A DNA stretch of 64,000 bases, from NCBI RefSeq assembly GCF_016901815.1, contig NZ_JACSNR010000011.1, positions 1 to 64,000 on the forward strand, given 5' to 3'. Shown here in pieces: positions 1 to 35,061 of this stretch (the stretch's first letter is position 1; the number at the start of each line of letters is the position of its first letter). Under the pieces are notes generated by a model, which was not told where the DNA came from, searched no databases, and saw only the letters and a program-made list of their open reading frames with translations. The stretch is from Hydrogenoanaerobacterium saccharovorans. Its GTDB lineage: Bacteria; Bacillota; Clostridia; Oscillospirales; Ruminococcaceae. The translations under genes were made by a program, and so were the position numbers.

Positions 1-72
1 ACTGGCAGGTCACACTTTTACTTTAACACATTAGGAGTTTTTTTATCTTTTTCACCGCTTAAGCTCTTTTGA

Positions 73-12977: not shown

Positions 12978-13655
12978 TCACAGGATCAGTTTCTGCCCGG
13001 GGTAGATGGTGTACTTCGGATTTCCGGTACCCTTGTTTTTGGCGTCGATGGTCGCCTTGTTCTTCTGGTACAGCTCCGGGTAACGGCTGCCGTCCCCGTA
13101 GTGTTTCTGGGCGATGGCCCAGAGGCAGTCCCCCTTGACCACCGTGTGGGTCTTGGAGGACGCCGCCGCAGGCTTTCCGCTGCGCTTGGGAGCGGATTTC
13201 ACTGCCCGGCTGGGAGAAGGGAGCGATACGGTCACGGCGCTGTAATCCTTCCACTCCTTGAGGGTGAGGGAATAGTAGATGTCGCCTACCTCGCCGCCCC
13301 GCTCCTCATAGGAGAAGTCCTCCACCGCCACTGCCATGTTGATGTTGAGGTCGGTGCCGGTGATGGAAAGGCGTCCGCTTTCCCGGGTGTCCCGCCAGTC
13401 CTCGATGTCCCGGACATAGTCCACCGGGGAACGGCTCTCCCAGGCCGAGACATAGGGCGCATCATGGGCGGGGAAATGGCTCTCCCAGCTCACCTGCCGC
13501 AGTCCCCGCCGGCGCAGGAGGCTCACCTCACCCAGCTCCAGCACGGTGGCTGTTTCATTCTTGCCCGGGGATTTGACCGTCAGCTTTTCCGGCAGCACCG
13601 GGATATGGATCACACTGCTGCCAAAGGACAGCGTCATCTGATAATCTGCCATCAA
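12978..13655 (-). CDS. XkdP-like tail protein with LysM domain
   Basis: 225 residues. The N-terminal ~165 residues are XkdP-like; the C-terminus (about 168-225, THTVVKGDCLWAIAQKHYGD to YPGQKLIL) is a LysM peptidoglycan-binding domain. The start overlaps the end of the tape measure gene by a few bases. It forms part of the tail tube end or hub. Confidence 0.85.
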   Translation of the reverse strand: MMADYQMTLSFGSSVIHIPVLPEKLTVKSPGKNETATVLELGEVSLLRRRGLRQVSWESHFPAHDAPYVSAWESRSPVDYVRDIEDWRDTRESGRLSITGTDLNINMAVAVEDFSYEERGGEVGDIYYSLTLKEWKDYSAVTVSLPSPSRAVKSAPKRSGKPAAASSKTHTVVKGDCLWAIAQKHYGDGSRYPELYQKNKATIDAKNKGTGNPKYTIYPGQKLIL

Positions 13656-15568
13656 TATACCCCCTCGGCTCCGGCAGCCACTTCCTCGATCAGCGCATCG
13701 GCTACTCTGCCGGTGAGCTCGTCAATGTCCACCCGCTCCGACACCTGGGCGTTCATGGCCACCGTCGGGGTCAGGGTGACAAAGTTCTGCACATAGCGCA
13801 TCTCCGCCACATCTTTCATCAGCTGGAGGTCCTCGTCGGCGATGTTCACATCACTGTTGATCTTGCCGACCTCGCCCACCTTGCCGATACTGTCAAGCTG
13901 ACTTGCCCCGGCGCCTCCCGCAGCGGAAAGCAGGGAATCGGAAGCTGCCTTTTCCGCAGCGGCAGCTACCCTGGAGGCATTCTCCGCCCTGCGGGCAGCG
14001 TGCGCCGATTCCAGTGTGGCCTTTTGAGTCGCCAGTGCCGTGTCCCGGCTGCTGATCCGGTCATTGACCGCCTGGGTCTTGGCTGCCAGATCGGCGCTGC
14101 GCTGCTGCTTGGCTGCCTCGTTTTCCAGTCCGGCTATCGTGCCGAAGGTCAACTGATCGATGAGATCAATGGACACCCCCGGAATCTTATTGAGCGTGCT
14201 GATAAAATCGTTGATGATGCCGATACCGCCGTTGGCGAGCTCCTGAAGCTGAGTAAGCGCCCCGGCCCTCATATCTCCCATGAAGTTCTGGAAGTTGGTG
14301 GACAGGGTCGCCGCTCCCAGCTCCATACGGTCCAGGGAGTTCAGCACCCAGGTGACACCATAGGAGATCCCGTAGGCGGTCAGATCGGTGCCATACTGGA
14401 TATAATCCATCGCAATAGCCCAGGCATTCTCAAGGCCGCCCACTGCCTGCACCCACTGATAGATCGCCGCTACTACTACGCCGATTACAAGGGCGATCCA
14501 AAGCAGCGGATTGGTCAGAAGGGTGGCAAAGAATGTCCTGGCAGCTCCGGTGGCGATCCAGGTCGCTGTGGTCTGGATTCCCAGTGCCACAGCGTAGGCA
14601 AGACCGGCTGCCGCAAGCCCCCAGAAAACCGGTTCAATGGTTCCCCAGTTGTCCACAATCAGCTGGGCTCCGGCGCCGATCATCTGCAGCACCGGCTGGA
14701 AGGAATCCATCAGGATATTCTGTGCCATTGTCCATACCTGGGAATAGGTATAGGGCATGGATTCAAATTTCCGGTTGATCTCGTCCGCCGAGGACAGCAT
14801 GGCATTTTTGACGATCTCCGCCGTGATCTCTCCATTGGCAGCCATGTCCCGGATTCTGCCGATGGGCACATCGAGATAGTCCGCTATGGTCTGGATAATG
14901 GTGGGAGCCTGCTCAAAGATCGAGTTCAGTTCCTCACCACGGAGAACACCCGAGGACATGGCCTGGGTGAGCTGCAGCATGGCGGCGCTCTGGCCTTCGG
15001 CAGACGCTCCGGCAATAGTGAACTGCTTGTTGATCAGCTCAGTGAACTGCACCAGTTCATCGGTACTTCCGAAGGCATCTCCTGCCATAATACCCATCTT
15101 GGAGATGGCGTCCGCTGTGTCCAGATAGGAGGCACGGGAGCGGTTAGCCGACTGCATGATTCTCTGCTGCAGCTGATCCGCCGTGGTTCCGGCCTCGTTC
15201 ATGCCCTCAATCACCAGATCCAGCCGGGCCCGGGTGGTGGTCATGCTGTCCGCCAGCTGGAGCACCCGCTGGGCGCTGTATACTGCCCCGGCGCCGAGCA
15301 GGGCACCCTTGACCCTGGACATGGCATCTGCCAGCGGGTCCGCCGCATTTCCGGCGTTGTTCAGGTTCTTCACCATCTTTTCCAGCTCGGCATTGTTGGC
15401 CTTTTCCGCCTGCAGGGCAGCACTGAACTGCCGGCGCAGGTTCACATCCAGATCCTTCTGGTCGATCTGTTCCATCACCTTGAGCAGCCGGTTGCTGCCC
15501 TGGATAGCCTTGTTGATGGTGGCTGTAAATCGGTCCTGCAATGCGAGGCTCGATGATACGGTTGCCAT
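13652..15568 (-). CDS. Tail tape measure protein
   Basis: 638 residues. Features are an N-terminal coiled region, a tape-measure domain (GAVYSAQRVLQLADSMTTTRARLDLV and VLRGEELNSIFEQAPTII), two strongly hydrophobic segments around 325-375, and an Ala-rich helical C-terminus. It lies after the frameshifted chaperone gene, the canonical position. The short length predicts a short tail for a contractile phage. Confidence 0.9.
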   Translation of the reverse strand: MATVSSSLALQDRFTATINKAIQGSNRLLKVMEQIDQKDLDVNLRRQFSAALQAEKANNAELEKMVKNLNNAGNAADPLADAMSRVKGALLGAGAVYSAQRVLQLADSMTTTRARLDLVIEGMNEAGTTADQLQQRIMQSANRSRASYLDTADAISKMGIMAGDAFGSTDELVQFTELINKQFTIAGASAEGQSAAMLQLTQAMSSGVLRGEELNSIFEQAPTIIQTIADYLDVPIGRIRDMAANGEITAEIVKNAMLSSADEINRKFESMPYTYSQVWTMAQNILMDSFQPVLQMIGAGAQLIVDNWGTIEPVFWGLAAAGLAYAVALGIQTTATWIATGAARTFFATLLTNPLLWIALVIGVVVAAIYQWVQAVGGLENAWAIAMDYIQYGTDLTAYGISYGVTWVLNSLDRMELGAATLSTNFQNFMGDMRAGALTQLQELANGGIGIINDFISTLNKIPGVSIDLIDQLTFGTIAGLENEAAKQQRSADLAAKTQAVNDRISSRDTALATQKATLESAHAARRAENASRVAAAAEKAASDSLLSAAGGAGASQLDSIGKVGEVGKINSDVNIADEDLQLMKDVAEMRYVQNFVTLTPTVAMNAQVSERVDIDELTGRVADALIEEVAAGAEGVY

Positions 15569-15784
15569 TTACTTTCCCCCCTTCTTTGCGGCACGCTCTG
15601 CCCGCTTGTTGGCCTCTTTTTCCGCCCGGATCTGCTCATCAATGGACGCATAGATAAAGGCTCGCTCCCGGATCGAGAGATCCATCAGAGCGCTGGGCAG
15701 AATGTGCAGTCTGTGGAGGGCGTAGTGGGCATAGACGGATTCCCCGTCCGGAGCCGCATCATCTCCCCCCGCTATCAGTTTTTT
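15569..15784 (-). CDS. -1 frameshift extension of the tail assembly chaperone
   Basis: In the -1 frame the DNA after the slippery site is open for about 70 codons (KLIAGGDDAAPDGESVYAHY ... KKGGK) and ends one base before the tape-measure start. No start codon with an SD is visible for it. It is therefore expressed, if at all, by frameshifting from the XkdN-like gene, giving a product of about 204 residues. This is the gpG/gpGT arrangement known from many tailed phages. Confidence 0.8.
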   Translation of the reverse strand, partial: KKLIAGGDDAAPDGESVYAHYALHRLHILPSALMDLSIRERAFIYASIDEQIRAEKEANKRAERAAKKGGK

Positions 15785-16182
15785 GCCTCGTCCACCAGAT
15801 CGTTGATGTCATCGTCAAAGCCATTGACCCTGAGGACACCCATCAGCAGGTCGGAGAACTGACCGGCGGTGAGCACCTTGTCCAGCAGTGCCTCAGCGCC
15901 CATAACTCCGACAGCCGCCTGCCAGTCGGCGTCCTTGAAGTTCGGCTCCACGCAGCAGGCGATCACCAGCTTGTTGTTGTAGAGGTCCTGGTCGGTGTAC
16001 TCCTGCCGCTGGCGGGTTTTCTGGTCGATGATCACTTTCTTGCAGCTCTTGCGGATGGCCTTGTTCTCACCCTCGGTGATAGCCCGTACCAGGAACGGAT
16101 CGGGCAGGGTGGCAGTCCGGACCTCCACCAGCTCATCACCGATGTCTGCCTGGGACATCAGGAAGTCCTGAAGTTTTCCCAT
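15775..16182 (-). CDS. XkdN-like tail assembly chaperone
   Basis: 135 residues (MGKLQDFLMSQADIGDELVEV...), with ATLPDPFLVRAITEGE and NKLVIACCVEPNFKDADW typical of XkdN proteins. It ends in GCA AAA AAC TGA; the heptamer A-AAA-AAC is a canonical -1 slippery sequence in the correct phase. It is located between tail tube and tape measure. Chaperones of this kind coat the tape measure during tail assembly. Confidence 0.9.
   Translation of the reverse strand: MGKLQDFLMSQADIGDELVEVRTATLPDPFLVRAITEGENKAIRKSCKKVIIDQKTRQRQEYTDQDLYNNKLVIACCVEPNFKDADWQAAVGVMGAEALLDKVLTAGQFSDLLMGVLRVNGFDDDINDLVDEAKN
15778..15784 (-). promoter_or_regulatory. Ribosomal -1 slippery heptamer AAAAAAC
   Basis: A-AAA-AAC in frame, followed at once by the TGA stop of the chaperone. 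Slipping back one base reads K-K-L-I-A-G into the long overlapping frame. Confidence 0.8.
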
Positions 16183-16207
16183 GATTGTTTCCTCCTTAAA
16201 AAGAAAA

Positions 16208-16226
16208 CCCCGCTGTTCTGGCGGGG
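16208..16226 (-). terminator. Terminator or attenuator after the tail tube gene
   Basis: CCCCGC and GCGGGG enclose a 7-base loop; leftward it is followed by TTTTCTTTTT. It lies between the tube and chaperone genes and may lower chaperone expression relative to the abundant tube protein. Confidence 0.65.
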
Positions 16227-16239
16227 CTTGGTTGTTGGT

Positions 16240-16701
16240 TTACTGGATCTTGGTGAACTCCTGGAGGATATCGTAGTCCTCAAAGGTGAAGTCGGCGTCC
16301 TCCTCCAGCGGATCATCGCTGTCACCGTCCAGCTTGGTGAGCACTACGCTGTCCAGGTTGCAGTCCATCAGCAGTGTGGTCTGCTTGCCGGCAGAGCTGG
16401 ACGGGTCGTTGTTCTCCACCACCAGATCGAAGTAGATGTCCACACCGGTGTCCTTGTACTGCTTGAGCATCTGCCGGAACAGCGGGGTGAGATAATAGAG
16501 GGTCATTTTGCCGCTGCCGCTCATGCCGGTGGTCTTATGACCGGTCATGCGCCGGCCGATGGCCTTGATCTCTGACTTTGCCTTCTCCACCGAGGCCTCG
16601 ATGGTCTTGGCGAAGAACAGCTCCTCGTTGTTTCCATTGATCTTGGCGTAGGCTACGCCCTCCTTGCCGCTGATGGGGTCAAAGGATTTCAGTTTTGCCA
16701 T
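16240..16701 (-). CDS. XkdM-like tail tube protein
   Basis: 153 residues. Features include the opening SFDPISGKEGVAYAKINGN and the motif RRMTGHKTTGMSGSGKMTLYY, both typical of XkdM/DUF2001 tubes. It directly follows the sheath gene and precedes a terminator-like hairpin, as expected for a highly expressed structural gene. Confidence 0.9.
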   Translation of the reverse strand: MAKLKSFDPISGKEGVAYAKINGNNEELFFAKTIEASVEKAKSEIKAIGRRMTGHKTTGMSGSGKMTLYYLTPLFRQMLKQYKDTGVDIYFDLVVENNDPSSSAGKQTTLLMDCNLDSVVLTKLDGDSDDPLEEDADFTFEDYDILQEFTKIQ

Positions 16702-16720
16702 ATTGGTTTATCCCCCTTTC

Positions 16721-18040
16721 TTATGCCACATGGACCGTCATGTAGAGCTTTTCCATGCTGTCATTGGGCTTCAGCGCGCTGGCAACCGCCACATCGCGCT
16801 TTCCAGCGCCCTGGTCGATTTCGATGTCGGCACTCTCAAAGTCGCTGATGGCGCCGATGTCCTGGTACTGATTCCCCAGGCTCACCAGATCGGCCTTGAA
16901 CAGCTGGCGTCCGGTGTCGTTGTTGGTGGCAAGGCCGAGATAGGATGCGCCGAAGATCCGCGCCACATCATTGGCCCAGCCGTCCAGTACACGGATCAGC
17001 CGGTTGGAGGTAAAGTCCGAGGTCTTGCCGCCGGCGAAGGTGGTCAGGCTGTTGATGTCGGTGAGGACACGGGCCTGCTGGTTCTCAGCGTAGAACACAA
17101 ACTCGCCGGCCTTGATGGCTGCCTCGTACTGGCTCTTGGTGTACTTCTCGCTCACATCCACCGCGCCGTCGTAGACAGCATTGGTCAGGCTCTCGTTGAT
17201 CTCCGCTGCCGCCGTAGCGCCGCAGACCCAGGCCACCGCCTTTTCCGGCGGCAGGGTTTCGCCGCTCTCCAGCACCACACCGTTCTTCACATTGATGATG
17301 CCCTCATAATCGGCCTTCTGCCCGGTCAGCACACAGGTGATCTTCTTGCCCTCATCGTCCCGCAGGCGCTTCACAAAGGCCACAAACAGGCCCTTGGTCT
17401 CGCTGTCAGTGCCGGGGTAACAAAGGGTATTGAACTGCTCCACCTCCACGGCGGAGAGGTACTTGGTGTAGGCTGCGCCGTTCGCTGTACCGTTGGTGCC
17501 GCCCTCCAGGGCAGTGGCTACCGCCGCCGAAAGAGAGCCTTCCCCACCAAAGATGACAAAGTCATTGGCAGTCAGCCCGGCGGCCTCGGTCACTGTCTGA
17601 CGGTCCATCTCAGTGGTATCCAGATAGGTCACCACATCGAAACTCCCGTCTGTATTTTCCAGTACCGCCACCTTGAGGGCATTGCCCCGGGTGCCGCTGT
17701 ACCTGGCAGTCACGGTGATACCGCCGATCTCCTTGGCGGCCTTGGAGCCGCCGCCGTCCACCCGGTAGACAAGCAGGGTTTTTGCCCGCTTGAATGCCTC
17801 CCGGATCAGCAGCAGTTCCGGCGCTGTGGCATCGTAGCCGAACACCGTCACCGCCTGTCGGTTAAAGTCGCCGGAGTCCATCTTGATGATGGTGTCCTCG
17901 GCACCCCAGCCCAGCTCCGCCGGGATCGAGGCGATGCCCCGGGAGCCCGCAGAAACGCCGCCGCTTGCGGATACAAAGTTCATGTATACGCCGGGGAGCA
18001 CCTTGTTCTGGAGTGTAAATGTGCCGCCTCCAATAGGCAT
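16721..18040 (-). CDS. Tail sheath protein (XkdK-like)
   Basis: 439 residues with the sheath opening PIGGGTFTLQNKVLPGVYMN and the conserved VTARYSGTRGNALKV segment. The C-terminal domain (GNQYQDIGAISDFESADIEI ... VHVA) is the sheath-to-sheath handshake region. The sheath shows that the phage has a contractile tail. Confidence 0.95.
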   Translation of the reverse strand: MPIGGGTFTLQNKVLPGVYMNFVSASGGVSAGSRGIASIPAELGWGAEDTIIKMDSGDFNRQAVTVFGYDATAPELLLIREAFKRAKTLLVYRVDGGGSKAAKEIGGITVTARYSGTRGNALKVAVLENTDGSFDVVTYLDTTEMDRQTVTEAAGLTANDFVIFGGEGSLSAAVATALEGGTNGTANGAAYTKYLSAVEVEQFNTLCYPGTDSETKGLFVAFVKRLRDDEGKKITCVLTGQKADYEGIINVKNGVVLESGETLPPEKAVAWVCGATAAAEINESLTNAVYDGAVDVSEKYTKSQYEAAIKAGEFVFYAENQQARVLTDINSLTTFAGGKTSDFTSNRLIRVLDGWANDVARIFGASYLGLATNNDTGRQLFKADLVSLGNQYQDIGAISDFESADIEIDQGAGKRDVAVASALKPNDSMEKLYMTVHVA

Positions 18041-18044
18041 AAAA

Positions 18045-18248
18045 TCACACCTTTCTGGTCATGTATCGGTTGATAGCTTCTTCTGCCTCGGACACCGTGT
18101 AGAGCCTGCCTTCTTCCAGCAGCGCCCGTATGATGTCCGGGTGTACTTTCAGGGCAGCGGTCAGCTGCTCCCGATAAAAAGAGGGCTCCGTCTGAACGGC
18201 GGGCCCCTTTCCGGCGGGCTTTGCGGCCCGTTTGTTTTTTGCTGTCAT
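18045..18248 (-). CDS. Small phage protein upstream of the sheath
   Basis: 67 residues, basic N-terminus (AKNKRAAKPAGKGP), then a helical part (FYREQLTAALKVHPDIIRAL and SEAEEAINRYM). It overlaps the tail terminator gene by 4 bases (ATGA). Proteins of this size are common just before the sheath gene, but I do not recognise a function. Confidence 0.7.
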   Translation of the reverse strand: MTAKNKRAAKPAGKGPAVQTEPSFYREQLTAALKVHPDIIRALLEEGRLYTVSEAEEAINRYMTRKV

Positions 18249-18667
18249 TCTTTCAGTCCTTCCCTCATCTCCAGGTCCTCCATCGGTTCCCCGGCAGGCG
18301 GGTCCAGCAGCCCCGAAAGGGTCATATCAAAGACGAAATGGAACACCATATCGTCCCCGGGCTCCGCCTGGGCGCCGGTGATATGTACCACCTGCCCGTT
18401 CACCGTCAGGGTCTCCAGCTCCGAATAGAGAGTCTCCGCCCAGTCGCCAAACACCAGTGCGTCCCCCTCCCGGCAGAAGTAGAGCACCTCGAAGCTGTAC
18501 GCCCGCTCCCGCCGGCGCCCGAGCTTTTTGGTGTGGCTCTGATCGGTACAGCGGATATAGTGGTTTCCGTCGGCTTCCCTGGGGATCTGGGTATAGTAGA
18601 CCGCCCGTTCGGGGAAAAGCTCCCCCAGCCGGAGCGCCAGTGCGCTCATAATCTCGTTCACGGTCAT
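18245..18667 (-). CDS. Tail terminator/completion protein (DUF6838-like)
   Basis: 140 residues. The layout (MTVNEIMSALALRLGELFPE, YYTQIPREADGNHYIRC, FEVLYF) matches phage tail terminator proteins of Gram-positive contractile phages. It lies between the gp10-like gene and the sheath. Confidence 0.7.
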   Translation of the reverse strand: MTVNEIMSALALRLGELFPERAVYYTQIPREADGNHYIRCTDQSHTKKLGRRRERAYSFEVLYFCREGDALVFGDWAETLYSELETLTVNGQVVHITGAQAEPGDDMVFHFVFDMTLSGLLDPPAGEPMEDLEMREGLKE

Positions 18668-18670
18668 GGT

Positions 18671-19201
18671 TTACAGTCCTTTCTCCAGTTCTTCCTTGAT
18701 GTATCGCTCAAATTTCCGCTGGATACGGGATTTCTGAGTCATTTCAGTGCGGCGCATGGCTGTCCGGAGGGTCCAGATCCCCTCCACATAGCCGCCATAC
18801 GGCCCCACATACATTCCCCCGGGAAAGCCCGGCTCATAGACAAAGGTTTTCCCCTCCCAGTGTCCGGGGACAAAGTGGGAGCGGAAGCCCATCTCCAGAA
18901 AGCTGGCATAGTCGAGGTTATTGTAGACATCAATAATCCAGGTCTTTCCCTGTTTCCGGGGTTTGCTGCCATCGTGCATCCTGGCGGAGGAATAGGCCGG
19001 GCGGGTTTTGGTTCCGGTGTGGAAGTTGTACCGGTATGCGCCGGTGTTGACCACTCCGGCGTTTGTGACGATCTTCCGGGCCTGCCCCACGGCATAGACA
19101 CCCTCACCGATCAGGATCTCCTCCATGACCTCCGGGGCCTTGTCCCCCAGGCGCTCCAGGTTGTCCCGGAGCTGCCGGAGACCGCTGACTTCCATGCTCA
19201 T
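18671..19201 (-). CDS. HK97 gp10-like neck protein
   Basis: 176 residues. Contains SGLRQLRDNLERLGDKAPEV and ARKIVTNAGVVNTGAYRYNF, the gp10/XkdI signature. Such proteins join head and tail. Start overlaps the upstream stop by 4 bases. Confidence 0.85.
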   Translation of the reverse strand: MSMEVSGLRQLRDNLERLGDKAPEVMEEILIGEGVYAVGQARKIVTNAGVVNTGAYRYNFHTGTKTRPAYSSARMHDGSKPRKQGKTWIIDVYNNLDYASFLEMGFRSHFVPGHWEGKTFVYEPGFPGGMYVGPYGGYVEGIWTLRTAMRRTEMTQKSRIQRKFERYIKEELEKGL

Positions 19202-19593
19202 GCCAGATCCACCGCCTTGAGGAATACCTCCCGGTGGGTCGGGTAGAGCAGCGGCTCTCCCACCGCCTCAAACTTCTGCACCGATGGACTGGGGTCAAGA
19301 AAGCGCCCGAACCGGGAAACAGTCACTGTATCGCCGGGACGGACTTCCTTGTCCGGCTGGACAAACAGCTTGCGGTCATACCGGAGGTTCTGCTGAGCGT
19401 CGGTCTGGCGGCTGCTGTCGCTGCCGCTGGACAGGGCGCAGATGATCCCCGAGTATACGGGGCTGGGCTGGGGTCTGGTAAAGCCGTCATCACCCTTCAC
19501 AGGCTGCGGGCGGGAAATGACCGCCGTGTCCTCATAGGTGGCCTCCAGAGCCATTCTTTCAGCGTATGGATTGCCAAACATACCAGTCACCAC
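19198..19593 (-). CDS. Head closure protein-like (XkdH position)
   Basis: 131 residues, with VSRFGRFLDPSPSVQKFEAVGEP typical of the head-tail closure family (the small β-rich protein before gp10). Function is inferred largely from position. Overlaps its upstream neighbour by 7 bases. Confidence 0.7.
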   Translation of the reverse strand: MVTGMFGNPYAERMALEATYEDTAVISRPQPVKGDDGFTRPQPSPVYSGIICALSSGSDSSRQTDAQQNLRYDRKLFVQPDKEVRPGDTVTVSRFGRFLDPSPSVQKFEAVGEPLLYPTHREVFLKAVDLA

Positions 19594-19934
19594 CTCACCT
19601 TTCGGAACGCATTCAGCTGCGACCGGTAATCATCCAGCAGGGATTTCCCGGCGCCGGTGATCTCCGCCGCAGCACTGGCATTGCTGCCGTAGCTGACGGT
19701 CACATCACCACGGGTCACCGACTGGGCGGTCCGGGGAGCGGCAGCCTGCCCATAGCCCTCGCTGCGGACCTGGTCTGCCGCCATACGCACAACCACACTT
19801 TCCAGCCGGGGCGGGATCTCGTCGAGGTTGCAGTAGGAGAGCACCAGGTCGGTGACCGCGTCCAGCACAAAGGTGAGGACGGCGTCCTGCTCCTCCCCGG
19901 AGATGCCCAGCAGCAGCTTGAGTTGATCGAGCAA
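19587..19934 (-). CDS. Head-tail connector protein
   Basis: 115 residues, mostly helical (LDQLKLLLGISGEEQDAVLT; VLDAVTDLVLSYCNLDEIP), matching the gp6-like connector family that docks beneath the portal. It directly follows the major capsid gene. Confidence 0.8.
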   Translation of the reverse strand: MLDQLKLLLGISGEEQDAVLTFVLDAVTDLVLSYCNLDEIPPRLESVVVRMAADQVRSEGYGQAAAPRTAQSVTRGDVTVSYGSNASAAAEITGAGKSLLDDYRSQLNAFRKVRW

Positions 19935-19951
19935 GCGGATCTCCCCCTCTC

Positions 19952-21163
19952 TCAGCCTCTGGAAATGATGCGGGCAATCGGGATCGCCTTGTGGTCGATG
20001 TACTCCTTGGAAGAGGACGCGCCGTTGTGGACCAGGGTCCAGTTTGCTCCCTTCTCCAGCTCTGCCGCAGTGGGAGACAGCGTTGCCTGGGAGCTGCGGG
20101 TGTAGCTGATGCCATAGGGCGCAAACACCTTGCGCTGGCGGCTGTACAGGGTGTCCTGACCGCCGTTGGTTTTGGGATCGCGGCTCATCTCATAGGGCAC
20201 CTTGGCGCCGATGTTCTCATAGTCAAAGGCACCATCGCCCAGCACATAGGTGATGTACTGCACACCCGGCACCACATAGTTCTCCGCTGTGACGCTGCCG
20301 GTGCCGAAGTACGGAGTGACATCGCTCTTGTTGATCTGACCGTCCGAAGCGCCGGAATCCTTGACCAGCAGGGCACCGGGTTCCTCGGCTGTGGCGGGGT
20401 AATAGCCCTCGGTGGCAGGCATACTGTCATCAATCAGGACGATACGGCCGTTCCAGGTACCGAGGCCCAGGTCACGCTGTACGCCGCTCTCGTCAGTCTG
20501 CTTGAGGTAGGCCAGGAGGTTCAGGTTCTCCAGGTTGGTGGCAACGGTGGAGTGCATCACGACCAGGGTGAACTTGGCCTTGTTGTCGCCGCAGGCCTTC
20601 TGGATGGCACTGTTCAGGGTGGTGCTGCCCGCCATATTGAGAGCGTGACCGTCGCTGTCCTTGCCGGTGGCCAGGGTGATGTCATAGGTGTGGCCGTTTA
20701 CAAACTTGAGGTTCTCGGCGCCGGTCATCGAGAAAATGCCCTTGAGGATCGAAAGCAGGGTGTCCTGATCCACACCGTCCCAGTATTCGGCGACCTGCTG
20801 GGCCACATTGCCCATGAAGTCGGTGCCGCCGGTAATATCGCTGGAGAAGTCCAGCTCGGTCCAGGACTGGGCACGGCCTACCACCACAACGCCGCGCTCA
20901 AAGGTGGTGGTTTTCTGGGCGGTAATGTCGGTCTGGCCGTCGTAGTTGAGCGGGGTGCCGCCGATCCGTCCGGTCATGGGAATGGTGGCGAAGGCGGTGC
21001 CGGTCTGGCTGGAAAATGCCGCCTTGATCTGCTGATTGCCCCGGAGCGCCCGGGACTTGATCAGCTCGTTGCGCTTGGTGGTCGGGATCCGTTCCACATA
21101 GGCGCCGAACGCCACAGGGTTAAACGACTTGCTGTCGAATTTCGACTGGGTGTACTCTGCCAT
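19952..21163 (-). CDS. Major capsid protein
   Basis: 403 residues (MAEYTQSKFDSKSFNPVAFG...). It has the HK97-fold coat pattern of Clostridia phages, with LIKSRALRGNQQIKAAFSSQ and a long central A domain. SD AAAGGAG supports the start. It follows the scaffold gene. Confidence 0.9.
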   Translation of the reverse strand: MAEYTQSKFDSKSFNPVAFGAYVERIPTTKRNELIKSRALRGNQQIKAAFSSQTGTAFATIPMTGRIGGTPLNYDGQTDITAQKTTTFERGVVVVGRAQSWTELDFSSDITGGTDFMGNVAQQVAEYWDGVDQDTLLSILKGIFSMTGAENLKFVNGHTYDITLATGKDSDGHALNMAGSTTLNSAIQKACGDNKAKFTLVVMHSTVATNLENLNLLAYLKQTDESGVQRDLGLGTWNGRIVLIDDSMPATEGYYPATAEEPGALLVKDSGASDGQINKSDVTPYFGTGSVTAENYVVPGVQYITYVLGDGAFDYENIGAKVPYEMSRDPKTNGGQDTLYSRQRKVFAPYGISYTRSSQATLSPTAAELEKGANWTLVHNGASSSKEYIDHKAIPIARIISRG

Positions 21164-21188
21164 AATCTTGTCTCCTTTTCTTAGTTAC

Positions 21189-21827
21189 TTAGATTGCATC
21201 CGGATGCTCCGCCACATAGGCAGCGAACTCCGAATAGGTCATTTTGCTGAGGTCGGGCTTCATCTCGCCCCCGTTTCCGGGATCTGCGGGCTTGGCTCCC
21301 TTGATGGTGGGGGTTCCACTGGTTGCAGCCGGCTTTTCCTCCATAAACAGATAGGGTTTCTGTTCCCTGATGGGCTTTACCAGCTCGTCAATGGAGGTTT
21401 TGAGGTTGCCTGCATCGTCCAGCTCGATCTTCCCAAGATCCAGCAGCTTGATGATGTCCTCCGGGTCGTGGGCCTTGCCGGTGAGCTCCACCTTGAGGGC
21501 GGAGGTGCGGCGGATGGTGTTCAGCTCGGCCTTGTAGTTCGCCTCCAGGGTGGAGATCTTCTGCTGGGCCGCTGCCACATCGTCGGCGATCTTTGCCGGA
21601 TCACCGCTGCCGCCCACTCCCTTGAGGGCTGCTGCCGCATTCTTGAGGGCGGTTTCCGCACTGGTGCGGGCCTGCCGCTCCGTTTCCACTTTTTCAGCGG
21701 GAACATAGCTGCCGTCATTGCCGATCACCAAATCGATGTCCCTGCCGTCCTTGCCTTTGCCCTTGAGGGCAGCTTCCACCTGCCCGGCGAGTTCCTCACC
21801 CAGCAGCTCCTTGATTTTTTCCAGCAT
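21189..21827 (-). CDS. Scaffold protein (minor structural protein GP20-like)
   Basis: 212 residues. Highly charged and helical, with an N-terminal LEKIKELLGEELAGQVEAAL and a central coiled coil (VAAAQQKISTLEANYKAELN), as in GP20 scaffolds. It guides capsid assembly. Confidence 0.85.
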   Translation of the reverse strand: MLEKIKELLGEELAGQVEAALKGKGKDGRDIDLVIGNDGSYVPAEKVETERQARTSAETALKNAAAALKGVGGSGDPAKIADDVAAAQQKISTLEANYKAELNTIRRTSALKVELTGKAHDPEDIIKLLDLGKIELDDAGNLKTSIDELVKPIREQKPYLFMEEKPAATSGTPTIKGAKPADPGNGGEMKPDLSKMTYSEFAAYVAEHPDAI

Positions 21828-21924
21828 GGTTTTGCTCCTTTCTTTCCGGCTGTGTTTTCCGTGACTTCCACACGCTTTGCCTTGGCCTGTTTTGCGGGGA
21901 CAGGCAGCCCCGGTATATGAAAAA

Positions 21925-21940
21925 GCGCCCGACCGGGCGC
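21925..21940 (-). terminator. Terminator before the scaffold-capsid genes
   Basis: GCGCCC and GGGCGC with a 4-base loop, followed leftward by a T run. The second of two tandem hairpins. Confidence 0.6.
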
Positions 21941-21967
21941 CTTATCACCAGAAATGGGTATAAAAAA

Positions 21968-21991
21968 GCACCGTACCCATTGGGCCGGTGC
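21968..21991 (-). terminator. First of two tandem terminators
   Basis: GCACCG and CGGTGC arms with inner CCCA/TGGG pairing, followed leftward by TTTTTT. Together with the next hairpin it separates the MuF accessory genes from scaffold and capsid; a promoter may lie just downstream. Confidence 0.6.
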
Positions 21992-22032
21992 CGGTTTATT
22001 TTATTCAGAATCTTCTTCCAGATCCATCACTG

Positions 22033-22263
22033 TCAACCCCCGCTATCTCCGAACTTTTCCTGAAGAAGCTGCTCAAACTGTCTGTTGACCTCTGCCTCTT
22101 TTTCCTCTTCTTCCTTGGTCAGAGCTCTGCGGGAAATCACCCTTGGATTTCCGGGATCACTGATCCTCCAGAGAAACATATCATGCGGCGAAAGCTCCTT
22201 ATAGCGTTCCGTCTTCTGATCTTCCGGCAGTTTCCGGGATTCCTCCAGTGTCAGTTTACTCAT
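22033..22263 (-). CDS. Hypothetical small acidic/basic protein
   Basis: About 76 residues from MSKLTLEESRK, with PHDMFLWRISDPGNPRVISR and a charged helical C-terminus. The ATG at 22263 has GAGGTGG upstream and overlaps the end of the 36-residue gene before it by 8 bases, so it is translationally coupled. No family recognised. Confidence 0.6.
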   Translation of the reverse strand: MSKLTLEESRKLPEDQKTERYKELSPHDMFLWRISDPGNPRVISRRALTKEEEEKEAEVNRQFEQLLQEKFGDSGG

Positions 22264-22366
22264 CGACTTCTTCCACCTCGCTTTCAATTACGCCATCTGG
22301 AATCTGTTGGTCTTTCCAAGGCGAAAGGTTGTTAAGATATGCGCCTATTCCCTTTCCGGACGGCAT
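22256..22366 (-). CDS. Small 36-residue protein
   Basis: MPSGKGIGAYLNNLSPWKDQ then an acidic tail ending in EVEEVDE. Fills the gap between two small genes and overlaps the next start (GATGAG). Only a weak SD (GGAG, distant). Function unknown. Confidence 0.5.
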   Translation of the reverse strand: MPSGKGIGAYLNNLSPWKDQQIPDGVIESEVEEVDE

Positions 22367-22376
22367 TATTGCTGGA

Positions 22377-22562
22377 TCACGTCTCCGATTCAAAATCCTC
22401 AATCAGATGCCTTCCATAGCATAGTACATTCAGGTCATCCAACTTTCGCAAACGCTCCAAATCGTCACCAGGAATATCTTGATGCTTTAATCGATAAGTG
22501 CCTTCCCTCGTTTCATTAAGATATTTACTCATAAACCTTATATCTTCAATACCCAAAAGCAT
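22377..22562 (-). CDS. Small protein directly after the MuF gene; possible immunity or partner protein
   Basis: 61 residues beginning MLLGIEDIRFMSKYLNETRE with a Leu-rich, acidic second half (DDLERLRKLDDLNVLC). AAAGGAC is 12 bases before the ATG. It lies 6 bases after the MuF-metallopeptidase gene. Genes in this position after toxin-bearing MuF proteins are often immunity genes, but nothing in the sequence proves this. Confidence 0.6.
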   Translation of the reverse strand: MLLGIEDIRFMSKYLNETREGTYRLKHQDIPGDDLERLRKLDDLNVLCYGRHLIEDFESET

Positions 22563-22568
22563 AATTTA

Positions 22569-24272
22569 TCAGTCCTTTCTGAGCAAGATATCCATGACCT
22601 TCCGGGCAGTTTCCCGAGGGCTGCCTCCCATATACTCTGCTACCGCTTCGGCAATAAACTCCCAATCATCGCGCAGCGCATAATAGGACAGATATTGTCC
22701 GGCCTTTTTCATGTTTTCAGCGCTGTCATTCAAACTCCACTGCGTGATACCGCATACTTTCTCAAGTTCATTTCTCAGCGCTGCAATTTGTTTTTGCTTA
22801 GCCGCATTATTTTTTGTAAAAAGCATTTGAACTGCATGCCCCAACTCATGCCGAATTGCGTGTTCAGTTTGATCCGTGCTCCAGAATCCTGCCGCGAAAT
22901 TCTCCTGTGCAGTTTTCAGCATCTTTTCCAGAGAATCCTTCTCCCTCACTTCCCGCATATACACAATCCCGGAACTGGGTTGGTAAGCTGCGTAGAAATT
23001 TTGTTCTTTGGGATAGTACATCACACTTCTCAGGACGCCCTGCTCATGAAGATCCCCAAACACATCATAATATGCGGTGATTTCCCGATTAACAGAGTTC
23101 GCTACATCAAGATCAAAGCGATCATAATCCACATTGTCCAGATGCAGAACAGACAGAGCGTATTCCTTTGCTTCCCGGGCAGAATTTGCGGGAGTGAACT
23201 CCATTTTCAGCTTGATTCTACCATTTTCAGTATTGTCTTTCAATACTTCGGGCGTTTCGATGCCCTGTTCTGCTGCCCACTGGGCATAGGTCATGCGCTC
23301 CGGCATGGGCTGCCCGATGGTCTCCCAGTCCTTCCACTCGTCCGGGTCATATTCCACAGTGGTGGAGCGGCAGTTGGGGTGCATGGGCGGATAGTTGACG
23401 CCTGTCTGCGCATCTCCGATATCAAAGACCTTTCCATCCAGACCGGCACAGACTGCACTGGTCCGGTTGTCCAGGGTGGCGATGAACTCATACTGCCGGA
23501 CGCCGGCGGCCTTGTAGGCGGCTACATCAGCAGCGTTGTGGAAGTGATTCGCTTCGGTACGGATCAGCCGTTCCGCCGTCTTGTAGCTCTGACCCAGCTT
23601 ATCGGACAGCTCCTTGGACAGGGCAGCGACTCCTTTTCCCTGGATCGCCCCCTGGGTCATGATCTCCCGGAGATGGAAAAGCAGCGCCCTTTTGTTCTCC
23701 CACAGTCGGGAGGAAAAATCAGCGCCGCTCCACGGATAGGACAGTGTCTGTTCCACCAGTTCACGGTTGAGATGTGCAAAGTCGAACATCTTTCCGGCGT
23801 GCTGCTGGATATCGAACATCTTGCGGTAATAGCTGTCGGTATAGAGATCCCCGAAGCCTTCCCCCATTCCGTCCTCCAGGTCGATCATCAGGCGGTCTAC
23901 CTCCATATCCACCTGGGCTTTCAGGGCGTCCAGGCGGGTGATCCGGCTGCTGTATGCCCGGGCATCCAGCTCTGCCTTGAGACGGTCCTTGAGGGCCCCA
24001 TCCGGCAAAGCATTGATCTCATCCACATAGGCCCCCAGGGTCTTGGTCCAGGCCTTGGCTTCAGATCCGCGCAGCACTTTCACTGCCTCGGCATAGGAAA
24101 GTCCCTGCTCCGAGGCGTAGCGTCCGTAGAACTCCTCAATCTGACTGCTGATCTCCTGTGCCGCCCTCTTGTAATGGCGGAGCGCCTGCCGGATCAGGGT
24201 CCCCCCCTGTTCAGCGGCCCGCTTTTCCAGTTCCTCGGCCCGCCGAATCCAGTAGTCCTTACTCGGTGCCAT
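22569..24272 (-). CDS. MuF/SPP1 gp7-like head protein fused to a zinc-peptidase-like domain
   Basis: 567 residues. The first ~320 are the MuF head-morphogenesis domain, with LIRTEANHFHNAADVAAYKAAG and the Cys/His pattern CAGLDGKVFD...PPMHPNCRST. The remaining ~230 form an added domain. Its HAIRHELGHAVQ contains the zinc motif HELGH, and EFIAEAVAEYM could supply the third ligand. MuF proteins enter the capsid and can carry C-terminal effectors (polymorphic toxins), so this may be an injected peptidase. Its start overlaps the portal gene by 14 bases. Confidence 0.85.
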   Translation of the reverse strand: MAPSKDYWIRRAEELEKRAAEQGGTLIRQALRHYKRAAQEISSQIEEFYGRYASEQGLSYAEAVKVLRGSEAKAWTKTLGAYVDEINALPDGALKDRLKAELDARAYSSRITRLDALKAQVDMEVDRLMIDLEDGMGEGFGDLYTDSYYRKMFDIQQHAGKMFDFAHLNRELVEQTLSYPWSGADFSSRLWENKRALLFHLREIMTQGAIQGKGVAALSKELSDKLGQSYKTAERLIRTEANHFHNAADVAAYKAAGVRQYEFIATLDNRTSAVCAGLDGKVFDIGDAQTGVNYPPMHPNCRSTTVEYDPDEWKDWETIGQPMPERMTYAQWAAEQGIETPEVLKDNTENGRIKLKMEFTPANSAREAKEYALSVLHLDNVDYDRFDLDVANSVNREITAYYDVFGDLHEQGVLRSVMYYPKEQNFYAAYQPSSGIVYMREVREKDSLEKMLKTAQENFAAGFWSTDQTEHAIRHELGHAVQMLFTKNNAAKQKQIAALRNELEKVCGITQWSLNDSAENMKKAGQYLSYYALRDDWEFIAEAVAEYMGGSPRETARKVMDILLRKD

Positions 24273-25719
24273 TTACACCACCGCCCTGCTGCTGACCGGC
24301 CGCAGTGAAGTCCTCGGCGAACATCTGCGCCCCGAACTCCTCCATCTCCCGGGTCTTTTCGTCCTGGATCCGCTGGAGTTCCTCCTCCACATTGTCCACC
24401 CACGGGTGATTGGCCAGCTGGGTATACCGGCTGATAATACCGTCACTGCCCCGGATATTTGCAATGATATCCGCCTCATTGACCGGCAGATCGGCATTGA
24501 AGGTCACATGGAAGGAGTCCCCGGTGAAATCGCCCTTCCCAGTCAGAGCCAGGGCGGCGTCGATGAACACCTTCATCTGCTCAAAGGTCCCCTGCAGCTC
24601 AGCTCCCAGGGCAGCGCAGTCGGTATCCAGGTCCATATACCGGAAGTTGATGGCCGTGCCGCTGGCATTGCCCAGATCCGGGTCCTTGGTATCCACACCG
24701 CTGCCGTAGTCAAACAGATCCCGGCGGTTCTTATCCAGGAAGGCCATAACCGCATCAATGTTGAGGGTCGGCTCCAGCTTTTCCACGCCGCCGTCCCCCT
24801 CCACCTGGATGGCCAGTGCTTCGTAGAGCTCCCGGGTGAACTGATCAATGTCCTGGCCGCCGTAGTTTTTCAGGATAAAGATGAACTTGGCGATATCACG
24901 CAGCACATCGGCGGTCACCGAGGTCTGCCAGTTCACATCGTCGATCAGCTCCTTAATGAAGTAACACAGGGGCAATTCTTCCTCGTTGTACTTTGTCCAC
25001 ACAATGGGAACCGCGTCCCAGTTGTACGGCTGGCCATTCACTGTGAAGTGAGGGAACTCATTGGTGCCCGGGTCGCTGTCATAGTCCGGCTCCAGGGTGG
25101 AAAGGCTTGGAATCGGATAGGTGGTCTTGTACTTCCGTACTCCCTGTCGGTCCCAGTATTCCACCCGGGTGATGGTCTTTTTGTTCCGCCCGCTATACAC
25201 TACCTGGGGATAGATGCGGATATAGGCGTCCAGCTCGGTGTGCTCGGCGTCCCTCCACAGGGGGATCACCTCGGTGCTGGGCAGCCGCATCCATTTGAGG
25301 GTGCTGTCCTCAAAGTAAGGCGCCAGCCAGGCGATTCCCGACTTGACTGCTCCCTTGCCCAGGCTCTTGATCTTCTGGCGGAAGCGCCCGTCGAACATCT
25401 CGGTCAGGGCGTCAGCATAGGCTTTGTTCTCACTCTCCACCGAAAAAGGCTTGGAGAGCAGATAGTTTGCCTTCTGATCCACCAGCTTTTTGAGGATCGG
25501 GTGCTCGATCTTGGTGTTGCTGCGATTCTTGTATTTGTTCTCCTTGCGCTGCACATCCGAGCGGTTGCGATAATAGTCATCTGCCTGCTTCATGATGTCA
25601 TACTGCGGCGAGATGAGAAAATCATTGATCTCAGCGGCGATGATCTCAGGCAGTGTCATAACAGACCCGGCGCCGCCCTCGATCATCAGCCGGATTTCTT
25701 CACTTCGTGTCAGTTCCAT
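24259..25719 (-). CDS. Portal protein (SPP1 gp6-like)
   Basis: 486 residues with SPP1-portal features: ADDYYRNRSDVQRKENKYKN, HPILKKLVDQKANYLL and the long helical stem before an acidic C-terminus. It forms the ring through which DNA enters the capsid. Sits between terminase and MuF. Confidence 0.9.
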   Translation of the reverse strand: MELTRSEEIRLMIEGGAGSVMTLPEIIAAEINDFLISPQYDIMKQADDYYRNRSDVQRKENKYKNRSNTKIEHPILKKLVDQKANYLLSKPFSVESENKAYADALTEMFDGRFRQKIKSLGKGAVKSGIAWLAPYFEDSTLKWMRLPSTEVIPLWRDAEHTELDAYIRIYPQVVYSGRNKKTITRVEYWDRQGVRKYKTTYPIPSLSTLEPDYDSDPGTNEFPHFTVNGQPYNWDAVPIVWTKYNEEELPLCYFIKELIDDVNWQTSVTADVLRDIAKFIFILKNYGGQDIDQFTRELYEALAIQVEGDGGVEKLEPTLNIDAVMAFLDKNRRDLFDYGSGVDTKDPDLGNASGTAINFRYMDLDTDCAALGAELQGTFEQMKVFIDAALALTGKGDFTGDSFHVTFNADLPVNEADIIANIRGSDGIISRYTQLANHPWVDNVEEELQRIQDEKTREMEEFGAQMFAEDFTAAGQQQGGGVNGTE

Positions 25720-25730
25720 ACTTTTCCCCT

Positions 25731-26987
25731 CTACTTCATGATTCCGATGGACGGACGCTTCATATCGTCCTCGCAGGCGTACCGCACCGCATCGATATGA
25801 TGGTTGTCCTTATCCGGGTACCCGGCTTTGAAAATGCCCTCCCGGTCCCGCTCCAGCTCATAGCCGGAGAACTCCCGGGCGGTTTCCGGACACCGGGCCG
25901 GGTCAATGATGATCTCCTCCAGATCCTGCAGCCACTTGATGCCATACTCCACACTGTCCGGCCCTTTCCGGGCTCCTACCACCCGCAGGCCATAACCTCT
26001 GACCTCGTCAATGCTCTTGGGCTCGGCGCTATCACAGGTGATCCGGGAATTGCCGGCCTCCGGCTTGATGAGACCGGCTGCTGCCCGGTTGGACAGTCTG
26101 ACCTTGTGGATCTCCCGGAAGAGATACAGCCGGCGGCGGGTCTTGTCGTAGTGGCACACATTGTAGGCAAACGGGTCCGCCGCATAGCCCCAGTCAATGC
26201 CCCGGCGCAGGTTGTCAAAGCGGCTGATCTCCTCATCGGTGATCCTCCGCAGAGTGACATTGTCAAACACTTCGCCGCCGGTGCCGGTGACTTCACCCAG
26301 GTATTCATGGCGGTAGGCCTCCGGCTTCACGGCCTTGAGGTGCTCCGCCTCCACGATGAACTGCTCTCCCAGCCATTCCGGCGGAACAGTCAGATAGGTG
26401 GAGTGATGCACCAGGGTGTCCTCCCGCTCGATGGCAGCATACTGATTGACCCAGTTCCGGGCCGCCTTGGGCGGGTTAAAGGAGTAGAATGCAAAAAAAT
26501 CAGCGCCGCCACGCAGCACTGACTGATTGATGGAGCGGATCTTCTCCGCCCCCTCGAACTCATTGACTTCCTCATACCAGAGGTATTTCGCCCAGCCCAC
26601 CGCAAATTTGATGGACTTGACCTTGGTGGGATCGTCGGCGCCCCGGAAGATGATCCGCTGGCCGGTGGGCAGGTAGGTCCAGGACATGGGGGAAACGCTG
26701 GATTTCCAGAGCTCCGCCACACCCAGGGCGTTGATAGCCCAGCCGATCTGCTCAAACACCGATTCCCGCAGGGTCACACCGTACCGCCGCAGGACGATGG
26801 CATTGGTGTACTGGCCCTTCCCGGCGTCCCGCATCATGCCAAGCGGAATCTCCACCGAGATGAAGGAGGACTTGGTCGATCCTCGACCGCCCTTGAGCCA
26901 GTAGTGGGTGTGCCGGTGCTGCTTAATATCCCGATGGACACCGGCAAAAGTGGGAGCGATGATCTTTGACAGCTTAACCGTCACCAT
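25731..26987 (-). CDS. Terminase large subunit (PBSX/XtmB family)
   Basis: 418 residues. Walker A GGRGSTKSS near 33, Walker B region YLWYEEVNEF near 136, and the nuclease domain with IDWGYAADP and CDSAEPKSIDE. It powers DNA packaging and cuts concatemers. It overlaps the small subunit gene by 14 bases. Confidence 0.95.
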   Translation of the reverse strand: MVTVKLSKIIAPTFAGVHRDIKQHRHTHYWLKGGRGSTKSSFISVEIPLGMMRDAGKGQYTNAIVLRRYGVTLRESVFEQIGWAINALGVAELWKSSVSPMSWTYLPTGQRIIFRGADDPTKVKSIKFAVGWAKYLWYEEVNEFEGAEKIRSINQSVLRGGADFFAFYSFNPPKAARNWVNQYAAIEREDTLVHHSTYLTVPPEWLGEQFIVEAEHLKAVKPEAYRHEYLGEVTGTGGEVFDNVTLRRITDEEISRFDNLRRGIDWGYAADPFAYNVCHYDKTRRRLYLFREIHKVRLSNRAAAGLIKPEAGNSRITCDSAEPKSIDEVRGYGLRVVGARKGPDSVEYGIKWLQDLEEIIIDPARCPETAREFSGYELERDREGIFKAGYPDKDNHHIDAVRYACEDDMKRPSIGIMK

Positions 26988-33977: not shown

Positions 33978-34709
33978 CTACTCCTTTCTGCGCTCGGTGA
34001 CGATCTGCAGTAGTTCGTAATACTGGTACGGCGTGCCGAATAACTCATGGACGCCGTTCTGGACTTCTCCCAGCATCATGTATCCCTTGGGGACTTTCAG
34101 GTCTTTCCTCCAGCGGCTCCGCCCAGTCTCCTCGATGGTGACCTTTGGTTTCCTCAGATTCTTTGATGGATTCCACCGCCGCCCGCTGACCAGCTTCTGG
34201 CGGAAGGTCCGCCGGGTCTCTTTGATTAGGTACGCCGCCAGAGGCTTGAAGTTCCCCTCGGCATAGAGATAGCCCGGGCGGATATTCCCGTGGGGCCAGA
34301 TGTCTTGCAGCAGTCCAGGGTCGATCCGTGGCAGAATGATGTGGAAGTGTGGCGCTGTGCTCTCGTATTCGCACACCCAGATGTATCGCAGCTCCCTCCC
34401 CTGCTTTTTGTAAACTGCCCGGCATTTCCGGAGAAAGGCCTGCATATCCTTTTTGAGAAGGGACTTGTCCGCTGGGCGGTTCTCCTTCCGGTAAGTGAGA
34501 ACCAGATGCAGGTCCCCCGGCTGGAAGTTCTCCAGCAAAGTCAGCCACAGTTTGAACTCACTCCGGCGTTCATTGGCTTCTGCCACCCTCTCCGGGGTTG
34601 GCTTTTCCCTCTGTCCCCGTCCGGCCCTTACTCCATACCGGGGACTGTAATATCGCTCCACCACCGTCACCGGTCCTGCCCGGTAGGTGGCCTTTATGTA
34701 TCCCGCCAT
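33978..34709 (-). CDS. HUH-type rolling-circle replication initiator-like protein
   Basis: 243 residues. The HUH motif is H121-F-H123-I-I-L, preceded by RYIWVCEYESTAP; the probable catalytic tyrosine is Y160 in KPLAAYLIKET. HUH enzymes nick one DNA strand at an origin and stay attached through the tyrosine. This is the only recognisable replication protein in the prophage. Immediately upstream (34710-34890) lie several hairpins and a divergent small-RNA-like unit, resembling the control region of rolling-circle plasmids. Confidence 0.8.
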   Translation of the reverse strand: MAGYIKATYRAGPVTVVERYYSPRYGVRAGRGQREKPTPERVAEANERRSEFKLWLTLLENFQPGDLHLVLTYRKENRPADKSLLKKDMQAFLRKCRAVYKKQGRELRYIWVCEYESTAPHFHIILPRIDPGLLQDIWPHGNIRPGYLYAEGNFKPLAAYLIKETRRTFRQKLVSGRRWNPSKNLRKPKVTIEETGRSRWRKDLKVPKGYMMLGEVQNGVHELFGTPYQYYELLQIVTERRKE

Positions 34710-34766
34710 TTTTCAACCTCTCAGCTATTACAGTGTCGAAAAGATAATTGCTTTACCAAGTCTGCA

Positions 34767-34791
34767 AAGGCGCATGGCGCCTTGCTTTTTT
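34767..34791. repeat. Perfect hairpin upstream of the HUH gene
   Basis: AAGGCGC and GCGCCTT with a 3-base loop. On the plus strand it is followed by GCTTTTTT (a terminator); on the minus strand it lies in the leader of the HUH mRNA, where it could also be part of a nicking origin. Confidence 0.6.
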
Positions 34792-34810
34792 CGCGGTTTG
34801 GCGGTATAAT
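34782..34810 (+). promoter_or_regulatory. Promoter for an antisense small RNA
   Basis: -35 TTGCTT (34782-34787), 17-base spacer, perfect -10 TATAAT (34805-34810). It points rightwards, against the early operon. Confidence 0.6.
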
Positions 34811-34816
34811 AAAAGC

Positions 34817-34886
34817 GGTAATTTGCACACAATCAAATACCGCTTTTGAGAAGGCAGAGCTCGTCACAGCTCTGCTTTTTTCTTTT
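34817..34886 (+). ncRNA. Candidate counter-transcript RNA antisense to the HUH gene leader
   Basis: A unit of about 70 bases between a good promoter and a strong terminator. It holds most of a hairpin with 10-bp arms (34811-34820 / 34838-34847) and ends in the terminator stem at 34854-34875. It is antisense to the mRNA just upstream of the HUH gene and to the 3' end of the gene before it. Rolling-circle plasmids control Rep in this way. Confidence 0.5.
34854..34886 (+). terminator. Strong rightward terminator of the small RNA
   Basis: GCAGAGCT and AGCTCTGC with a 6-base loop, followed by TTTTTTCTTTT. It overlaps the stop codon of the leftward gene at 34864. Confidence 0.75.
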
Positions 34887-35061
34887 GCTCATACCGCTCC
34901 ACCCGCCGGAGCATCTCCGTCTGCAGGATCTCAGTGAAAAGGATCACTGCTTCCCGGGGTGTCTCAATGCTGTCTATGTATACCTGTCCTCGCTTGAGGA
35001 TCACATAGCGATCCCCGGTGTCTGCCAGGGTGATGCCCCGGCACTCGTAGAGAATCCGCAT
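34864..35061 (-). CDS. Hypothetical protein, 65 residues
   Basis: MRILYECRGITLADTGDRYV then a helical end rich in Lys and Glu. Its 3' end overlaps the candidate antisense RNA. Function unknown. Confidence 0.6.
   Translation of the reverse strand: MRILYECRGITLADTGDRYVILKRGQVYIDSIETPREAVILFTEILQTEMLRRVERYEQKKKAEL

Follow-up and report, generated by a model that had tools for sequence, protein, structure and literature searches.

A positionally conserved, putative antisense RNA unit in the leader of HUH replication initiator genes of Clostridia phages

The rep gene and the antisense unit in its leader

We analysed 64,000 nt of Hydrogenoanaerobacterium saccharovorans DNA (contig NZ_JACSNR010000011.1, positions 1 to 64,000; hereafter the window), which covers part of a contractile-tailed prophage. 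Leftward genes for terminase, portal, head, tail sheath and tape measure occupy 13652-26987, bearing out the phage setting assumed in the original prediction for this locus, and a serine recombinase and repressor-type genes lie to the right. The product of rep, the presumed regulated gene, matched the profiles PF23343 (REP_ORF2-G2P, E=1.8e-14) and phrog_3584 (replication initiation protein, E=1.7e-53), and a 16-row alignment showed the HUH motif PHFHI and an invariant YLIK region. Profile match, HUH motif and tyrosine region together place the window Rep in the PF23343/phrog_3584 family.

The gap 5' of rep measures 154 nt, and upstream of it lies a 65-aa ORF (34864-35061, minus strand) that gave no family match in Pfam- and phrog-type profile searches; its stop codon falls within the terminator hairpin listed below. 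A promoter, a pair of hairpin arms, a terminator and a second hairpin had been predicted for this region, opposite the leader of the HUH gene, and all of them were found at or near the expected positions. The gene and the elements of the antisense unit, including the predicted counter-transcript RNA (ctRNA), are:

33978-34709, minus strand: rep, HUH rolling-circle replication initiator (PF23343, phrog_3584)
34782-34810, plus strand: ctRNA promoter TTGCTT-17-TATAAT, pointing away from rep (from sequence and family geometry)
34817-34886, plus strand: predicted ctRNA of ~70 nt, opposite the rep leader (from sequence; fold −24.4 kcal/mol; start inferred from the −10 box)
34854-34886, plus strand: intrinsic terminator of the ctRNA, 8-bp GC stem followed by T6CT4 (from sequence; −15.8 to −16.8 kcal/mol)

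The −35 box (TTGCTT, 34782-34787) matches TTGACA in the TTG only (3 of 6 positions), and the −10 box (TATAAT, 34805-34810) follows after a spacer of 17 nt. The predicted ctRNA contains neither an ATG nor a ribosome site, and with its 3' part it overlaps the end of the 65-aa ORF. Its terminator (GCAGAGCT-CGTCAC-AGCTCTGC-TTTTTTCTTTT) is expected to work in the antisense direction only, because it has no U-tract in the rep direction. A search of the whole window with Rfam 15 gave no match at gathering score.

The hairpin with 10-bp arms (AAAAGCGGTA/TACCGCTTTT, 34811-34820 and 34838-34847) had been counted as part of the RNA unit. The hairpin is present, but roughly the first 6 nt of its left arm precede the expected ctRNA start (~34817), and it is therefore mainly a feature of the rep mRNA or DNA; the predicted ctRNA has a weaker 5' hairpin of its own (−4.7 kcal/mol). 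As a candidate intrinsic attenuator the 10-bp hairpin was dropped for the family, the other leaders having no U-tract.

Recurrence of the unit and of an origin-like element in relatives

Within the window alone, a count over 128 kb of strand gave 24 promoter-plus-terminator pairs (0.055-0.077 per 350 nt), the strongest of them far from the prophage early region (63163, plus strand, TTGACA-16-TATAAT, terminator −36 kcal/mol). A single such pair is unremarkable in the window alone, and we therefore gathered relatives of Rep. Blastn of the window DNA against phage records and a comparison of the window Rep with plasmids gave no match, and pattern scans with the window Rep over viral and genome contigs returned no relative; the Rep alignment (A1) was too divergent for a contig scan, and relatives of the window Rep were recovered instead by profile search of whole genomes. 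The full collection drew on profile search, contig scans and annotated phages. Eighteen close homologues served as the discovery set, after which the criteria were fixed, before any of the held-out loci: 90 non-redundant loci whose Rep is less than 85% identical to any earlier Rep.

An antisense promoter-terminator pair was present in 13 of the 18 discovery loci; the corresponding counts were 1 for the sense strand and 0.8 for shuffles. Among held-out loci with a Rep score above 200, the antisense unit occurred in 16 of 23 (sense 0/23, shuffled 0.0), at scores of 100-200 in 11 of 24 (sense 1/24, shuffled 0.5), and below 100 in 7 of 43 (sense 0, shuffled 1.25). Pooling the upper two bands gave 27/47 antisense versus 1/47 sense (Fisher p=1.4e-9). 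The unit was likewise tied to its position: it was found at the rep leader in 27 of 45 held-out loci, whereas 550-900 nt further upstream the same strand had it in 2 of 45 and the sense strand in 0 of 45.

The geometry of the 56 family units was nearly constant. The spacer was exactly 17 nt in 54 of them and the −35 box began with TTG in 52; the −10 box lay a median of 111 nt from rep, and the terminator ended a median of 69 nt past the −10 box. Across homologues, the rep leader was thus found to contain an antisense promoter and its terminator at a conserved position, also in induced Latilactobacillus phages and a Terrisporobacter phage. Among inducible lysogens, Latilactobacillus curvatus TMW 1.1365 and TMW 1.1381 and L. 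sakei TMW 1.46 carry units. Judged by sequence comparison, diverged sequence with constant geometry is the mark of a functional antisense RNA gene. That ctRNA control of the HUH gene operates here, as originally predicted, gains strong comparative support from the conserved position of the promoter, the 17-nt spacer, the ~70-nt length and the terminator.

It could still be argued that the unit has no RNA function and that a promoter and a terminator arose by chance in this gap, which is AT-rich within a GC-rich prophage; the frequency of such pairs in the window and the poor −35 box would both fit. We give this explanation hardly any weight. The unit recurs at the same position in unrelated homologues, which in our view rules chance out, and it is absent from the sense strand, from shuffles and from neighbouring positions; the comparative evidence thus identifies a real antisense unit.

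Several relatives do without it. No qualifying unit was found in FP_Toutatis, and the nearest relatives of the window locus (L003 and L004), judged by eye, have no such promoter. In Butyrivibrio phage Arawn (L030), too, no unit qualified, and rep follows the preceding gene after only 91 nt, while three loci with 70-72% Rep identity to Arawn (L244-L246) carry one, so that Arawn probably represents a natural loss. Since L003, L004, Arawn and FP_Toutatis lack it, the unit appears to be dispensable.

A further shared element of the relatives lies between the unit and rep: a GC hairpin and, after it on the rep strand, the motif CT(T/C)G-N8-ATTA. The corresponding elements of the window are:

34767-34783, minus strand: GC hairpin of the presumed double-strand origin, AAGGCGC-ATG-GCGCCTT (from sequence; same position in relatives)
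34745-34760, minus strand: presumed nick-region motif CTTGGTAAAGCAATTA (from CTYG-N8-ATTA conservation)

As a fixed pattern, CTYG-N8-ATTA was found in 44 of the 90 held-out loci, versus 1 of 90 on the antisense strand and about 1 in shuffles. At the level of predicted elements, then, a hairpin adjoins a conserved nick-like sequence near rep. CTTGATA nick sites are known from phiX174 and pC194. Position, association with an HUH Rep and likeness to these nick sites suggest that hairpin and motif most likely form a putative double-strand origin. The second perfect hairpin of the original prediction is this element; its presence held up, but its assignment to the layout of the RNA unit did not, as it adjoins the origin-like motif and most likely does not belong to the unit. 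The origin-like element was also seen in 19 of 56 loci without a ctRNA unit.

Complementary arms in the rep leader

Aligned on the −10 box, the relatives show an inverted repeat around this box whose sequence differs at each locus. We named the arm that falls within the ctRNA target B; the anti-arm, which lies in the ctRNA promoter spacer just outside the target, was named B'. By permutation, we compared the pairing of each locus's arms with their own partners and with the partners from other loci. For B:B', matched partners of the discovery set reached −14.2 kcal/mol versus −8.4 for mismatched ones (p=5e-5), and both held-out sets gave p=5e-5. When the ctRNA target was left out of the folding, B' appeared to pair with the rep start codon, and the B':start pairing was therefore tested as well, with matched and mismatched values of −15.2 and −11.1 kcal/mol in the discovery set (p=5e-5) and p=2.5e-4 and 5e-5 in the two held-out sets.

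The control pairings B:start, B':origin and B':rep +20..60 gave mostly non-significant results (p 0.03 to 0.998). B against the origin region reached p=0.009 in one held-out set, and origin against start 0.02-0.08; since some control pairings fell below 0.05, small composition effects exist, weaker than the main pairings. Shuffles within each locus gave a mean z of −2.71 for B:B' and −1.37 for B':start, compared with −0.18 and 0.00 for two controls, and the B':start pairing was individually significant in only 18 of 56 loci. Where both helices were present (36 loci), the B' bases that they use overlapped by 72%, versus 55% expected under rotation.

Partition-function folding of the 56 loci pointed in the same direction, the expected number of B':start pairs rising from 3.2 to 6.6 once the ctRNA target was removed (Wilcoxon p=1e-8). 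Over the family, the predicted accessibility of the start fell slightly, from 0.42 to 0.39 (p=0.04). An initial folding test of SD accessibility alone showed no overall change, and pair-specific tests were needed. An arm that is freed by the ctRNA and pairs with the rep RBS or start, the feature of a pSK41-type switch, is thus seen at the level of the family in complementarity and predicted folding.

In the window copy, the following leader elements were assigned:

34834-34843, minus strand: target arm B in the rep mRNA, GCGGUAUUUG (from family-wide B:B' complementarity)
34811-34820, minus strand: P1, UACCGCUUUU, an extra partner of B that gives the 10-bp hairpin (duplicated partner)
34800-34809, minus strand: anti-arm B' in the rep mRNA, UUAUACCGCC, encoded within the ctRNA promoter (pairs with the rep start)
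34702-34709, minus strand: rep start codon region AUGGCGGG, target of B' (from pairing and folding)
34889-34897, minus strand: B0, GCGGUAUGA, a second pairing partner for B', adjoining the ctRNA target on its upstream side (post hoc, specific to the window)

The window B' pairs with the start region AUGGCGGG at z −2.57, and its B:B' pairing is not significant (z −0.63), B preferring P1. When a short leader was folded, the start was predicted to be closed with or without the ctRNA. A longer leader was dominated by a 9-bp B0:B' helix (z −3.1), and the partner occupying B' in the window may be B0 rather than B. The B0:B' helix could be broken by a stiff ctRNA:mRNA duplex, since B0 lies right beside the ctRNA target; this idea arose post hoc. 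Tested as a general feature of the family, B0 was not supported. With B:B' not significant in the window and L003 and L004 seemingly lacking the promoter, support for the mechanism comes more from the family than from the window copy, and it is at family level that sequence comparison favours a translational switch.

Mode of action and relation to known systems

Antisense-RNA control of copy number is a textbook plasmid mechanism. We consider it reasonably probable that the ~70-nt ctRNA represses the phage HUH Rep through refolding of the leader. The sequences suggest a small RNA fully complementary to the leader, with its antisense promoter ~110 nt upstream of rep and its terminator ~70 nt further on. 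In its absence, B would pair with B' and the rep start would be open; once the ctRNA captures B, the freed B' would cover the rep start codon and SD, and Rep synthesis would stop. More phage copies would mean more ctRNA and less Rep, a plasmid-like negative feedback on replication, and because the origin sits between promoter and rep, each extra phage copy would contribute to it.

The closest known system in mode is that of pSK41 and the staphylococcal RepA_N theta plasmids, which has the same layout. Its RNAI (~83 nt) is complementary to a stretch of the rep leader that lies ~100 nt before the translation start, and RNAI binding was proposed to refold the leader and sequester the ribosome site (PMC5703833). 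The likeness is one of layout and mode only, and no sequence relation is expected: pSK41 is an unrelated theta replicon, whereas the phage unit serves an HUH rolling-circle Rep in tailed phages of Clostridia, has the origin inside the leader, and would encode the sequestering arm in the ctRNA's own promoter spacer. In pT181 (RNAI) and pIP501 (RNAIII), a ctRNA on the rep leader likewise decides rep expression through mutually exclusive helices (PMC5703833). These plasmids end rep transcription at an induced terminator, whereas most inspected phage leaders have no U-tract after the relevant helices; a hairpin plus U-tract between ctRNA target and rep was absent from most leaders read by inspection, the window having only UUUUAUUAU. 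In Gram-positive bacteria, pMV158 RNAII and the predicted ctRNAs of pC194 and pUB110 are examples of ctRNA control over an HUH rolling-circle initiator (PMC5703833, PMC4485353). Those plasmid Reps belong to Rep_1/Rep_2 and the phage Rep to PF23343. The plasmid ctRNAs act at or beside the rep ribosome site, whereas the phage ctRNA target ends ~100 nt upstream, beyond the origin; direct occlusion of the pMV158 type was not found, the −10 box lying a median of 111 nt upstream of rep and the target farther upstream. Among phages, mycobacteriophage prophages (RedRock, Alma and others) use RNA-based origins (PMC7157519) and so share a plasmid-style RNA in replication, but there the initiator RNA replaces Rep (ColE1-like), whereas here Rep is made and the antisense RNA would limit it. 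A literature search for ctRNAs on tailed-phage HUH initiators, with most subscription papers outside its scope, returned only plasmid work and the mycobacteriophage RNA origins.

On the sequence evidence, pSK41-like refolding of the mRNA leader is the likely mode, over simple overlap or pT181-type termination. The chief rival keeps the ctRNA gene and lets it act by another route, be it attenuation (pT181/pIP501), direct occlusion of the start by the ctRNA 5' part, RNase III cleavage or polymerase collision, with B' not the effector; we regard this as possible though rather unlikely. The fixed position of the convergent promoters would suit it, and so would the window's 10-bp hairpin with UUUUAUUAU behind it in the rep direction. 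The scarcity of U-tracts after either the B:B' helix or the origin hairpin in the inspected leaders speaks against attenuation. Direct binding can appeal to a significant but smaller excess of pairing between the ctRNA 5' part and the rep start (−13.1 vs −11.4 kcal/mol). The locus-specific excess of B':start is the stronger of the two (delta −3.5 vs −1.7), and since B' lies outside the ctRNA, direct binding leaves its locus-specific match to the start unexplained.

Promoter and inverted repeat might instead constitute a single-strand origin, folding in the displaced strand with the −10 box in the loop, so that host RNA polymerase makes the lagging-strand primer. The −10 box is indeed enclosed by the inverted repeat in most loci, and the RNA has the right polarity for priming the displaced strand, because CTTG-N8-ATTA puts the presumed nick on the rep strand. 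A primer would have no need of a strong terminator at a constant ~70 nt, priming would make no use of the complementarity between B' and the rep start, and the promoter is an ordinary duplex promoter with a spacer of 17; we therefore consider a single-strand origin improbable.

The unit is apparently common among phages and prophages of Clostridia and extends to Latilactobacillus phages, and many phages probably throttle their own DNA copying by a plasmid-type RNA brake. If so, phage lytic amplification would be linked to plasmid-type feedback, and it would be explained how several related prophages might coexist. The origin/rep/ctRNA cassette could be tested in inducible laboratory phages and offers candidate origins for a large unstudied Rep family. 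More than one phrog_3584 Rep is encoded in many genomes of the order, with a maximum of six in one genome (G207); if their arms differ, this would bear on RNA-based incompatibility between prophages. As the arms differ in almost every locus, each prophage could have its own RNA incompatibility type. Speculatively, and with considerable doubt on our part, these units may form a widespread class of phage replication brake: the ctRNA promoter would itself encode the lever closing the rep start, and RNA alone would confer replication immunity. If so, a resident prophage would need no more than RNA, separately from the repressor, to keep a related incoming phage from replicating, and several such prophages could share one cell.
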